DNA from: Candidatus Gastranaerophilales bacterium
GTDB lineage: Bacteria > Cyanobacteriota > Vampirovibrionia > Gastranaerophilales > Gastranaerophilaceae
Assembly: GCA_944325705.1 (NCBI GenBank)
Contig: CALVBB010000002.1
Coordinates: 1-64,000, forward strand
Direction of reading: 5' to 3'
Length of the DNA: 64,000 nt
The position numbers and the translations under genes were made by a program. The notes beneath the pieces were generated by a model. The model did no database searches. It had not been told where the DNA came from and saw nothing but the letters and a program-made list of their open reading frames with translations. Below are positions 20,986-53,248 of the stretch, piece by piece; position 1 is the first letter of the stretch, and every line of letters starts with the position of its first letter.

Positions 20986-22059
20986 TTATTGGAGATTTTT
21001 CCAGTAATCTTTATCTGTCAGGGCTTTGTAAGTGCACCCGACCCCGTTTTGATTAGAGGTGTTTGTCAGCGAACAGTATTTTGACATATCTGTGTAACTT
21101 GTTCCTTCTGCACCTACCGGAAGAAGCTTGCCTGAATCTGTTAACTGAAATGTAAAAAGATCGTATCCCCATCGATTCGGCCTTTTTTGAACTCCGTTTA
21201 CATCCACGGTTATCAAAATAGGGTATACTGTTGAACCGTCACCCATGGCGCTTTCCAGTAAAAATAAGGTGCCGTCAGTTGTAATAAATTGTCCGTCATC
21301 CAACCAGTTCGGTATAACACTATTTTTTGCATTAAATGTTATATATGGATTTTTCGCATTTTCATTTCCTGTAATTGAACCGTTTTCTATGCAGGAACCT
21401 TTTTCTGTTCCCTCGCCGCAATCCTGTGCATTTTTTATGTATTTTATCAGAAGTTTCTTTAACGGCGAACCCTTTGTTACTCCTTTTACTTTTTGATAAT
21501 TTGCCGGTTTTACAACCTCTCCAGTATCAAGCTGTGCTCTCAAAAGTGCCTGCTGCAGGACTGTGTAATTCTTCTTCAGCCCTGTTTGCAGTTCCTGATG
21601 CTGTGTTTTATTAATAAGTGCAGGCAGTGTCATCGCAGCAACAACCCCGATAATTCCGAGGGTGATTAAGACCTCAGCCAGAGTGAAAGCGGATTTTCGC
21701 AAGGGTGCCGAGTGAGCGATAGCGAACCCAGCCCGTAAGGTGTCGGAAAACCACGCTTTTCCGACATCCCGAATAATCCGGATAGCGGCTCTTTGATAAG
21801 TGAAGGGTGAAGAGTGAGGAGTGAAGTGTTCAACTAATTCCCTACCACCGCGGTATACAAAGGGAACCGCTGAGCCCTGCGAAGCTTGTGCCCTGTATGC
21901 CTTGTGCCGAGAGTGCCGGAGGCGGGAGAGGGGGGGGGCGGTAAAGTTGAACGGTTGACAAGTTGAAGGGTTAAAGAATTTAAGATTAGACATGCCATTC
22001 TGAAACGGTAATCGCTTAGGCTCGCATGAGTTGTCACTGTTCAGAAGCTCTTTATTCAC
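20986..22059 (-). CDS. Prepilin-like protein with unusually long leader and C9 tract (in frame)
   Basis: 357 residues from GTG 22059, or 335 from an internal ATG at 21993 (MSNLKFF), which resembles the starts of the two other tract-bearing pilins. The prepilin signal RKSA-FTLAEVLITLGIIG begins at residue 121, with Glu at +5 and Ala rather than Gly at -1. The mature part has the family marks: INKTQHQELQTGLKKNYT helix, ITVDVNGVQKRPNRWGYDLF and a C-terminal Cys pair (YCSLT...GVGC). The leader of 100-124 residues is encoded by repeat-like DNA: a C9 run (21930-21938), GTGAAGAGTGA-type repeats and a perfect hairpin. The frame is open, so this gene would be ON. Confidence 0.75.
   Translation of the reverse strand: MNKELLNSDNSCEPKRLPFQNGMSNLKFFNPSTCQPFNFTAPPLSRLRHSRHKAYRAQASQGSAVPFVYRGGRELVEHFTPHSSPFTYQRAAIRIIRDVGKAWFSDTLRAGFAIAHSAPLRKSAFTLAEVLITLGIIGVVAAMTLPALINKTQHQELQTGLKKNYTVLQQALLRAQLDTGEVVKPANYQKVKGVTKGSPLKKLLIKYIKNAQDCGEGTEKGSCIENGSITGNENAKNPYITFNAKNSVIPNWLDDGQFITTDGTLFLLESAMGDGSTVYPILITVDVNGVQKRPNRWGYDLFTFQLTDSGKLLPVGAEGTSYTDMSKYCSLTNTSNQNGVGCTYKALTDKDYWKNLQ
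21741..21766. repeat. Perfect hairpin inside the prepilin leader
   Basis: TGTCGGAAAA and TTTTCCGACA are a perfect 10-bp inverted repeat around a 6-nt loop, within the leader-coding part of the prepilin at 20986-22059. It resembles an intergenic palindrome that has become coding. Confidence 0.75.
21797..21828. repeat. Degenerate GTGAAGAGTGA-type tandem repeat
   Basis: About three imperfect copies of (A)GTGARGRGTGA. A similar run (GTGAAGAGTGATGTGTGACG) occurs at 56247-56266 in an intergenic spacer, so this is a dispersed low-complexity repeat. Here it is translated within the prepilin leader. Confidence 0.55.
21930..21938 (-). repeat. Homopolymer G9/C9 tract in prepilin leader
   Basis: Nine G on the plus strand, nine C in the coding strand, within the leader of the prepilin at 20986-22059. 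Loss or gain of one base would uncouple the start from the pilin. In the present sequence the frame is open. Confidence 0.8.
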
Positions 22060-26423: not shown

Positions 26424-26452
26424 TTGAAAATTTTTATAAAATAGTTTATAAT
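26424..26452 (+). promoter_or_regulatory. Sigma-70 promoter of the tract-bearing prepilin
   Basis: TTGAAA (26424-26429), 17-nt spacer, TATAAT (26447-26452). The other poly-G prepilin has the same pair with the same spacing at 52298-52326; the first 12 bases (TTGAAAATTTTT) are identical. Confidence 0.8.
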
Positions 26453-26490
26453 GTAAATGTAAATAGCAAAGTTTAAAAGGAGATTAAACA

Positions 26491-27460
26491 ATGGAAAATA
26501 CAGTAAAATCAAGGTTTTTCGGGGGGGGGGGCAAGTAGTTTAAGCTCCTTAACCGGCACAGAGCAAGGGATACAGGCAGCCGAGAGAGGCAAAGCCTTTA
26601 GTTTGTGTACATTTTTGCAGCGTCTGATTAAGAGAAAATCTCTCCTGCCGCCCTGTCTTGGATTTGCTCTACGCTCGGAAAGTTTCGCTTATGAACCTAC
26701 GGTTCAACACCGCTCAATTTCCTCGCAATCCGGATTTGTTCGCTTCGCTCACACGGCGCCCTGCCGAAAATCCGCTTTTACATTGGCAGAAGTTCTTATC
26801 ACTCTCGGGATTATCGGCGTGGTTGCGGCGATGACACTGCCGGCGCTTGTCGGAAATTATCGTAAAAAGCAGGTGGAAGTTAAACTTAAACGCTTCTATA
26901 GTGTATTTAATAATGCTTTAATTCGTTCGGAAGCAGACAACGAACAGATGCAGTTCTGGGAATGGCCTGAGAACTCCTATAAAGATGAGGATGGTGAGAT
27001 TATTCAAACCGGTTCAATTTCGGATTATGAGTGGTTTGAAAAATATTTGAAGCCTTATTTTAATATAAAAGATGTTAATCAGAGTTTTCACCTTTATTGT
27101 GTTTGGTATGATGGTTTTGCTATAAAGATGACAGATGGAACAGGGGTTGCATGCGGTATTTATGAGGGTCGCTCTTTTGGGGATAAAACCTATCCGTTTG
27201 TCTGCATGTTTTTTCCGGAATCAAAGAATATTGATAATGTTAGAGATTATAACACAAAGTCACAAAGTTTAATTTCAGGAAAAGACTATTTTATATTTCA
27301 ATTATTTAATGGAATAAACGGGAAAAAAGGCTTACAGGCTATAGATAGTGATGAATGTACCGGCGAAAAGGGTTTTAAAAACCTTCCTTCTATAGGCTGT
27401 GTAAAGAAAATTATTGAAAATAACTGGGAAATTCCGGACGATTATCCGGTAAAATTTTAG
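26491..27460 (+). CDS. Poly-G phase-variable prepilin (OFF in this sequence)
   Basis: ATG 26491 has a strong AAAAGGAG 8 nt upstream and the promoter described above. With the 11 G present the frame reads MENTVKSRFFGGGGK and stops. With 10 G (or 13) it runs without a stop into the pilin and to 27460, giving 322 residues. The pilin part has CRKSA-FTLAEVLITLGIIG (F at 26777, leader 95 residues, Ala at -1, Glu at +5), the KKQVEVKLKRFYSVFNN helix and a C-terminal Cys pair (DECTGEKG...IGC). A TTG at 26603 could start a shorter product but lacks a ribosome site. The role as a secreted minor pilin is inferred from the family. Confidence 0.78.
26521..26531 (+). repeat. G11 tract, switch of prepilin at 26491
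   Basis: Eleven G directly after TTTTTC and before CAAGTAGTTTAAGCTCC. The tract lies in codons 11-14 of the leader. One G fewer joins start and pilin. Confidence 0.9.
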
Positions 27461-34247: not shown

Positions 34248-34255
34248 CCCCCCCC
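34248..34255 (-). repeat. G8 tract upstream of the epimerase gene
   Basis: Eight C on the plus strand (G on the gene strand, followed by AGGG), in the leader or promoter region of the epimerase. It is shorter than the tracts in the coding regions and outside any frame. It could alter promoter spacing or transcript structure if its length varies. Confidence 0.6.
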
Positions 34256-50958: not shown

Positions 50959-51928
50959 ATGTTTAAAGTTATTAGCCAAAATTTTGCGTATAAAAAAGTT
51001 TCAATCTTTGGTATAAAGCTTTCGTTTATAACACCGGAATACAAAGAATTAAAAAAACTTTTCAGGAAGGTAATTGTAAGGGATTTTGGAAATAATAACA
51101 GGGTTATTTTGACCGGTAGTCCTTGTGTAGAGCCGATTTCGGGGGGGGGGGGACGCTGACTCTCTAAGGATTTCGTTTTTCGGGGATAACAATACGATTG
51201 TCATAGCACGCTCTGCAAAACTTTCCGGCCTGATTAATATATTCGGTGAGAATAATAGTATTTCATTTAGCCAGTTATCTCAATTTTCTTCAGGCATTTA
51301 TATCGGTAAAAAGGATGATTTAGTTAGAAGTAGTAATTTATGTTTTGGTGAGGGATGTAAGATTTTAAATTCTAATGTAGATATAGTATCAGGTTTTAAT
51401 CAAGTATTAAATATAGGAAATAATTCTCAATTAAATTCAGTTTATATTGAACAGTCAGGTAAATCAGAAGTCCATATCGGGAATAATGTATCTTTTTTTA
51501 TTAAAAGTCAAATTAGAATTGGATGGCAATCAGAGCTAAATATTGGAGATAACACTACAATTAATGAAATATTTATAAATACGGCAATGAATTCTAAAAT
51601 AAATATAGGTGAAGATTGTATGTTTTCCTGGAAAGTGGTTTTATTCCCCGATGATTGTCATCCTATTATGGATAAAGAAACAGGTAAGCTTATTAATTCT
51701 CATAATAACAATAATATCCATATTGGAAAGCACTGCTGGATCGGGTATGGAGTTACATTGCTCAAAAATGTAACTATTCCTGATAATTCTATTGTCGGAA
51801 TGAATTCTTTTGTAATTAATAAACAGTTTGATGAGCAGAATGTTATAATTGCCGGTTCTCCCGCTAAAGTTATTAAGCGTAATATCGACTGGGATAGGGA
51901 TTACGCAAGTTTAGGCAGAAAAACTTAA
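50959..51928 (+). CDS. Poly-G phase-variable left-handed beta-helix acyltransferase (OFF)
   Basis: From ATG 50959 the frame ends at 51159 after GGGGR because of a G12 tract. With 11 G (or 14) it stays open to 51928, giving 322 residues. The downstream part is a clear hexapeptide-repeat acyltransferase: LNIGDNTTIN, INIGEDCMFSW, IHIGKHCWIGYGVTLLKNV and NVIIAGSPAKVIKRNIDWDRD, like O-acetyltransferases of surface polysaccharides (WbbJ/Vat type). The N-terminal part before the tract already has strand-like segments (RDFGNNNRVILTGS). Calling 51587-51928 as an independent gene would remove half the helix and leave no ribosome site. Confidence 0.8.
51141..51152 (+). repeat. G12 tract, switch of the acyltransferase
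   Basis: Twelve G after AGAGCCGATTTC and before ACGCTGACTCTCTAAG. The 5' flank is identical over 12 nt to that of the tract at 52381. One G fewer opens the frame. Confidence 0.92.
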
Positions 51929-52009: not shown

Positions 52010-52183
52010 TTAAACTTTTCTTTTGCGAGCAGCTTCAGATTTGCGTTTTCTTTTTACGCTCGGTTTTTCGTATCTTTCACGTTTTTTTACTTCGGAAAGG
52101 ATACCGGCTTTCTGGATTTTCTTTTTGAAACGTCTAAGTGCGCTTTCAATTGATTCGTTTTCGCCAACTTTAACTTCTGCCAT
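52010..52183 (-). CDS. rpsU: 30S ribosomal protein S21
   Basis: 57 residues. It begins [19 protein letters not shown], continues with [23 protein letters not shown] and ends in a very basic tail ([15 protein letters not shown]), the standard S21 pattern. It is encoded on the minus strand with AAAGGTGG upstream of ATG 52183. It has its own transcription unit and shares the terminator at 51958. S21 sits at the 3' end of 16S rRNA near the anti-Shine-Dalgarno and affects start selection. Confidence 0.95.
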
Positions 52184-52297: not shown

Positions 52298-52326
52298 TTG
52301 AAAATTTTTCAAGAGTTTGTTATAAT
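52298..52326 (+). promoter_or_regulatory. Sigma-70 promoter of the second tract-bearing prepilin
   Basis: TTGAAA (52298-52303), 17-nt spacer, TATAAT (52321-52326), the same as the promoter at 26424. TTGAAAATTTTT is identical in both. Confidence 0.8.
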
Positions 52327-52350
52327 AAAAGAGGAAAGGAGATGTTAGAT

Positions 52351-53216
52351 ATGTTGAAATTCACTAATAGAGCCGATTTCGGGGGGGGGGGCAACGTACT
52401 CTAAGCTCTCTTTCGTTGTTTCGGGCAGGTAGTTCAGATTATTTTTTAGGAAGTATTAATATTGCACGCTGCGGGTTTACTCTTGCGGAGGTGCTGATTA
52501 CTCTTGGAATTATAGGTATTGTTGCAGCTCTTACAATGCCGACCTTAATTCAAAAAAATCAGGATAAGGAACTTATTTCAAGAACAAAGGCGGTTTATTC
52601 GACAATACAGAACGCTGTATTGAAATCCCAATCTGACTATGGAGTTATAGGAGATAATTCCCTGCTGTTTAGCCCGAATAATACAAGTAGCCAGACAGCA
52701 GAGGCTTTTGCTAAATATTTCAACGGAGCACGGGTTTGTAAATCTAAAACTGATAAAGGCTGCAGTACTTATTACTACAAAGTTAAATTCGGCTCATTAC
52801 GTTTATCTTCTGATAATAGCGGTGCTGCAGATGAGATGGGCTCATGGCCTAAAATTTTATTAAGTAACGGGGCTATTCTTGCAATACTCCAGTATAATAA
52901 TCCGGATTGTTATGCTCCAACAACAATAAATGTTACCGATGAATACGGCAGACCTCTAAAAAATCCGGACGGTACAAACCAGACTAAAATCTGGCATAAT
53001 AGACGCTGTGCAGTCGTTCGTTTTGATGTAAACGGCATTAAAAATCCAAATCAGTTAGGCAGAGATGTTTATTCAGTAGCTGTTATGAAAGATGGCAAGG
53101 TAAAAGCTGATGATACTTCTGTTACATTCGGCGGAAAGAGTCTTAACAATATTTTGACAGGTAAAGAAGAACTCCAGTACACCAATTACTCCTCCGGTCA
53201 GAAATATGACTTTTAA
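52351..53216 (+). CDS. Poly-G phase-variable prepilin, second locus (OFF)
   Basis: ATG 52351 has AAAGGAG 9 nt upstream; an ATG at 52342 is in frame but too close to it. With the 11 G present the frame ends at MLKFTNRADFGGGGNVL. With 12 or 9 G it stays open to 53216, 288 or 287 residues. The prepilin signal is RCG-FTLAEVLITLGIIG (F at 52476; leader 42 residues in the 12-G state; Gly at -1, Glu at +5). The mature part has KELISRTKAVYSTIQNAVLKS and FDVNGIKNPNQLGRDVYSV. It lacks the terminal Cys pair and ends in YTNYSSGQKYDF. A TTG at 52416 would be an alternative start without a ribosome site. Confidence 0.8.
52381..52391 (+). repeat. G11 tract, switch of prepilin at 52351
   Basis: Eleven G after AGAGCCGATTTC and before CAACGTACTCTAAGCTC. 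Adding one G (or losing two) joins start and pilin. Confidence 0.92.
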
Positions 53217-53222
53217 TTAAGA

Positions 53223-53248
53223 AGCCGGCATTTTGGGCCGGCTTTTTT
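53223..53248. terminator. Intrinsic terminator
   Basis: AGCCGGC (53223) pairs with GCCGGCT (53237) followed by T6. It lies between the convergent prepilin and SNF2 genes. Confidence 0.85.

Follow-up and report, generated by a model that had tools for sequence, protein, structure and literature searches.

The genome of a Candidatus Gastranaerophilales bacterium (G000, 1.95 Mb) carries dozens of poly-G tracts close behind the start codons of genes, many of which encode type IV prepilins, and the assembled tract lengths leave most of these prepilin genes out of frame by a single G. We consider it likely that the tracts reflect slipped-strand phase variation of a large type IV prepilin repertoire, in which most members are OFF and one slip from ON.

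Results

A G11 tract places a conserved prepilin gene out of frame

The window, i.e., the whole stretch of 64,000 nucleotides that was analyzed, contains a prepilin locus at 52298 to 53216, all features of which lie on the plus strand. A promoter of the form TTGAAA-N17-TATAAT (52298 to 52326; TTGAAA at 52298 to 52303, TATAAT at 52321 to 52326) is followed by a Shine-Dalgarno sequence, GGAG (52338 to 52341), read from the sequence 9 nt 5' of the ATG at 52351. We chose this ATG over 52342 as the likely start codon, since its spacing from the Shine-Dalgarno sequence is normal and it lies 30 nt from the tract, as in the commonest paralogue family. The tract itself consists of 11 G residues (52381 to 52391). 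With this length, translation yields a 17-residue peptide, MLKFTNRADFGGGGNVL, ending at a TAA stop codon (leader ORF at 52351 to 52404, OFF as assembled), and with 9 or 12 G the leader and prepilin frames are fused and open to 53216, just as the initial annotation had described. The prepilin frame (52392 to 53216), recognized by domain profiles and its motif, has no credible start of its own: the sole in-frame start codon between the tract and the prepilin motif is a TTG that lacks a Shine-Dalgarno sequence. Two tract-free prepilins of the window have ATG starts preceded by AAGGAG. Cleavage is predicted from the motif between G (52467 to 52469) and FTLAEVLITLG (from 52470), and a terminator-like hairpin with a T run, AAGCCGGC...GCCGGCTT, was read from the sequence at 53223 to 53248.

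The encoded protein has a class III signal (G/FTLxE) followed by a hydrophobic helix, and its N-terminal methylation motif exceeded the domain cut-offs of both Pfam (PF07963) and NCBIfam (TIGR02532). A structure model based on 12 homologues (pLDDT 75) revealed a long N-terminal helix (6 to 58) and a beta domain; its top Foldseek matches were type IV pilins (FimA), with an E value of 0.08, which is below significance. In G004, the closest relative, the orthologous gene has a G12 tract and is ON, with identical near flanks, whereas the copy in the window is G11 and OFF. Between the two genes, dS was 0.245 and dN was 0.038, values that show purifying selection on the window gene, which is therefore maintained despite its OFF state. 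The motif, the lack of a credible downstream start, the OFF state here and ON state in G004, and the conservation of the gene bear out its earlier assignment as a poly-G-switched prepilin. Identical tract length in all strains, the outcome that would speak against a switch, is contradicted by this pair (G11 versus G12) at the species level only.

A sister switch on the same strand (26424 to 27460) has the same promoter type, an ATG at 26491, a G11 tract at 26521 to 26531, and a prepilin leader of ∼95 residues. Its frame is also OFF with G11 (MENTVKSRFFGGGGK, then a stop) and opens with 10 or 13 G. As had been noted previously, the loci at 26424 and 52298 share the promoter and the first 12 bases, TTGAAAATTTTT, and since both tracts are G11, opposite single slips are needed to open them. 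The window contained exactly two matches to TTGAAA-N16-18-TATAAT, those at 26424 and 52298 (0.17 expected; none of 100 shuffles reached 2), and four G/C runs of at least 9 (0.06 expected). We rejected the idea that the shared promoter links the pair in any special way: it is of a general sigma-70-like type, which 8 of 52 poly-G leader loci inspected in the genome have in its strict TTGAAA/TATAAT form, and it is therefore no evidence for special co-regulation of the two.

Upstream of the window pilin, a gene for a hexapeptide-repeat acyltransferase (50959 to 51928, plus strand) contains a G12 tract at 51141 to 51152 and is likewise OFF as assembled. A 13-nt flank, TAGAGCCGATTTC, is common to this tract and the pilin tract at 52381. 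The gene rpsU (52010 to 52183, minus strand) indeed lies between them. The spacing of 423 nt given for the two switches holds from the acyltransferase stop codon (51928) to the ATG at 52351, but not for the tracts themselves, which are 1.2 kb apart. In G004 (L132), an insertion of ∼300 bp that resembles a dispersed intergenic repeat lies between rpsU and the pilin promoter; it is absent from the window.

Two further sites are located on the minus strand of the window. A G8 tract (34248 to 34255) lies in a small ORF, MLKFSHSVAYSRGGGG..., just 5' of a sugar epimerase/dehydratase-like gene, and the leader of this ORF resembles that of the pilin starting at 52351. The prepilin at 21620 to 21985 has a long leader crossed by a coding-strand C9 tract (G9 at 21930 to 21938 on the plus strand), which is possibly a poly-C counterpart of the poly-G switches.

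Poly-G tracts recur in prepilin leaders of the genome and the family

Across the genome, 67 poly-G runs of at least 9 were found (1.7 expected), and 36 of 118 prepilin-like motifs had a G run on the same strand no more than 800 nt upstream (1.6 expected). The window pilin is thus not the "second" such locus, as had been proposed, but one of dozens, and a picture of two pilins with four states is too small for a genome with 36 prepilin motifs just behind a tract. Most runs lie 27 to 36 nt (about ten codons) 3' of an ATG with a Shine-Dalgarno sequence; one of three tract lengths gives a long ORF, and the other two frames hit early stops. The leaders with G tracts form two large and several small families, and genes other than prepilins are also found behind tracts, e.g., the acyltransferase gene at 50959. 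Some open prepilin leaders (window 26534 to 26770, L018, L219, and L253) are very long, with up to ∼215 residues before the motif; they look as if built of dispersed repeats, although the frame is open.

Within the family, runs were numerous in many members, reaching 128 in one genome, and absent from some; other families of the order mostly had 0 to 6. In G033, G021, and G009, the runs again lay mainly in prepilin leaders. No prepilin switches were found among the poly-G loci of G025. In that genome (L328 to L347), the 89 poly-G runs lay within ORFs of other kinds and in a repeat that reads G10-TAAACCGCTCA. The abundance of tracts is not due to loss of mismatch repair, as both this genome and its tract-rich relatives encode MutS1 and MutL. 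A literature search, which mostly excluded subscription papers, returned nothing relevant on phase variation or poly-G in Gastranaerophilales.

Several features of simple-sequence-repeat contingency loci were thus observed: an excess of repeats at coding 5' ends, toggling of the frame by repeat number, and, as for the window pilin and its G004 orthologue, a locus whose tract length is not the same in related genomes.

Tract lengths are biased toward one OFF register

For each prepilin switch, the register was defined as the tract length relative to the length that opens the frame; free drift predicts that about one-third of the loci are ON. Every tract length given is the consensus of a draft metagenome assembly, and three genomes (G015, G052, and G055) had too few usable loci for the analysis. 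Among 164 prepilin switches in five species, which include related paralogues, so that the counts are not independent and the comparison is one between species, 131 were in the default OFF register, 20 were ON, and 13 were in the other OFF register. The respective numbers (ON/default/other) were 2/23/5 in G000, 2/14/3 in G004, 3/26/2 in G009, 7/33/2 in G021, and 6/35/1 in G033. ON and OFF loci were both present in all five species, and the default register held about 75 to 85% of the loci in each. In G033, the default tract lacked one G for an open frame; in the other four species, it had one G in excess. When each leader cluster was counted once, the bias persisted in G009, G021, and G033 (P = 1e-5 to 4e-5 each), and in G000 and G004 it was no more than suggestive (P of about 0.15). 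Of the two OFF registers of the genome, the window pilin, with one G missing, is in the less common one, and the locus at 26521, with one G in excess, is in the more common one.

The registers are therefore not spread over ON and OFF as free drift would give, a property that is not strictly defining for contingency loci. With tract lengths so heavily concentrated in a single OFF register, the switch states are used unequally, and unbiased random switching was not borne out. In G000, frames that open with 9, 10, or 11 G most often have tracts of 10, 11, or 12 G, respectively; since length tracks the frame need, a length artefact is not the explanation. The earliest stop codon was discarded as the reason for the favored OFF register: it fits G000, G004, and G033 but fails in G021. 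An easier slip direction, selection against the other states, cassette copying, or RNA slippage would each fit in part. Tentatively, the off-by-one register may itself be the regulated state of a poised repertoire, either held by selection or expressed via RNA slippage, a reading to which we give somewhat less than an even chance.

The off-by-one length might also be the working state, with RNA polymerase or the ribosome slipping on the tract, so that some full-length pilin is made in every cell; the DNA tract length would then be held rather than switched. The concentration of about 75 to 85% of loci in one off-by-one register, its persistence in three species with leader clusters counted once, the lengths of 10, 11, and 12 where 9, 10, and 11 open the frame, and the purifying selection on an out-of-frame pilin all agree with such expression. 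Transcriptional slippage on homopolymers is, moreover, a known bacterial mechanism, with an analysis of A and T runs available (PMC1088944). However, the direction of the offset differs by species (+1 G in four, −1 G in G033), ON loci occur, including the window orthologue in G004, and in Bifidobacterium breve, the one tested analogue, it is the DNA that changes and in-frame strains gain pili. Overall, expression by slippage appears unlikely.

Leader cassettes are shared between loci

Many loci have leader cassettes that are nearly identical, and contig ends tend to fall in them. One leader cassette is confined to the genus, and a search for it in viral contigs gave no match. Of 25 best-match pairs between G000 and G004, some of which may be paralogues, 19 differ in tract length, and the leader directly 3' of the tract differs between best-matching pairs, which suggests exchange. 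Solo cassettes with the same start and G tract and no fused prepilin were also seen (L071, L073, and L068; L201, L244, and L249 in G004), in which the tract is followed by a short tail common to them and by a terminator-like hairpin. One solo cassette, in G007 (L133), lies between rpsU and the gene for an SNF2 helicase and is followed by a prepilin that has a start of its own.

Given this sharing, the OFF copies could be storage, their register deriving mainly from recent gene conversion, by which leader cassettes were copied from one gene to another, and their expression from recombination instead of slippage. The near-identical cassettes in which contigs tend to end, the suggested exchange just after the tract, and the flank common to the pilin and acyltransferase tracts are compatible with a silent archive, but the same register bias is found across dissimilar leaders of one species and every copy is equipped with a promoter-like region, a Shine-Dalgarno sequence, and a start of its own, which makes an archive quite improbable. 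Errors of short-read metagenome assembly are hardly credible as the source of the runs or their lengths, for although the assemblies are drafts and poly-G is difficult to sequence (PMC9187656), the tracts occupy the same position in dozens of genes of several separately assembled species, have unique sequence on both sides, match in length a frame need unknowable to an error, and are mostly limited to 0 to 6 runs in other families of the order.

Discussion

Under slipped-strand phase variation, the reading that we prefer, transcription would start from the promoter at 52298 and translation from the ATG at 52351, and the ribosome would reach the G tract ten codons in. With 11 G it would meet a stop after 17 codons (OFF), and with 12 or 9 G it would read through into the prepilin (ON), which prepilin peptidase should cut at G/FTLAEV, removing the leader including the polyglycine. 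The mature pilin should be the same whatever the tract length, since the predicted peptidase site is located 3' of the tract. With most tracts in one OFF register per species, most pilins would be silent in most cells, and replication slippage would turn a few of them on; the presence of MutS1 and MutL may keep the rate of slippage modest. We infer slippage as the cause of the length change, cleavage of the leader, and selection for a mostly OFF repertoire, and surface display and the biological role of these pilins are presumed from the protein family.

Pilin variation proper in Neisseria occurs by gene conversion. The opa genes of Neisseria form a paralogue family, each member of which carries a CTCTT repeat in its cleaved leader and switches separately; compared with the pilins described here, opa genes are fewer, have pentamer repeats and a Sec leader, and encode outer-membrane proteins. 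We know of no common OFF register in opa. The pilC1 gene of Neisseria meningitidis resembles the present loci in that it encodes a type IV pilus component and has a coding poly-G of ∼10, of which a change from G10 to G9 causes truncation, but the switch there acts on a tip adhesin, in one or two genes, and not on a prepilin family (PMC5231331). In B. breve UCC2003, also a gut commensal, bbr_0113 and bbr_1889 have a comparable architecture, with a short upstream ORF, a promoter, a Shine-Dalgarno sequence, ∼11 G, and a startless pilin ORF; the default is out of frame, loss of one G is the productive change, and the two loci give four states (PMC9187656). ON forms of these G-tract-switched pili increase in mice, and their length variation was measured (PMC9187656), whereas the lengths reported here are known as assembly consensus. 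The B. breve pili are unrelated, being sortase dependent with a Sec signal and found in another phylum, and one or two clusters are present per genome (PMC9187656), in contrast to dozens of genes here.

Gastranaerophilales are gut bacteria, known here from metagenome assemblies only. Gene callers will annotate most such genes as truncated ORFs or assign them a spurious internal start, and the repertoire is therefore easily missed. The biased register is a sharp departure from the usual view, in which contingency loci drift freely between ON and OFF. If the off-by-one register is indeed the regulated state, the pilus repertoire of this gut lineage, poised and for the most part silent, would far exceed in size the phase-variable pilin sets known so far. 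Were switching at poly-G tracts to affect dozens of pilin genes in each genome, very many surface states would be possible per population, which would matter for attachment, escape from phages, and immune recognition.
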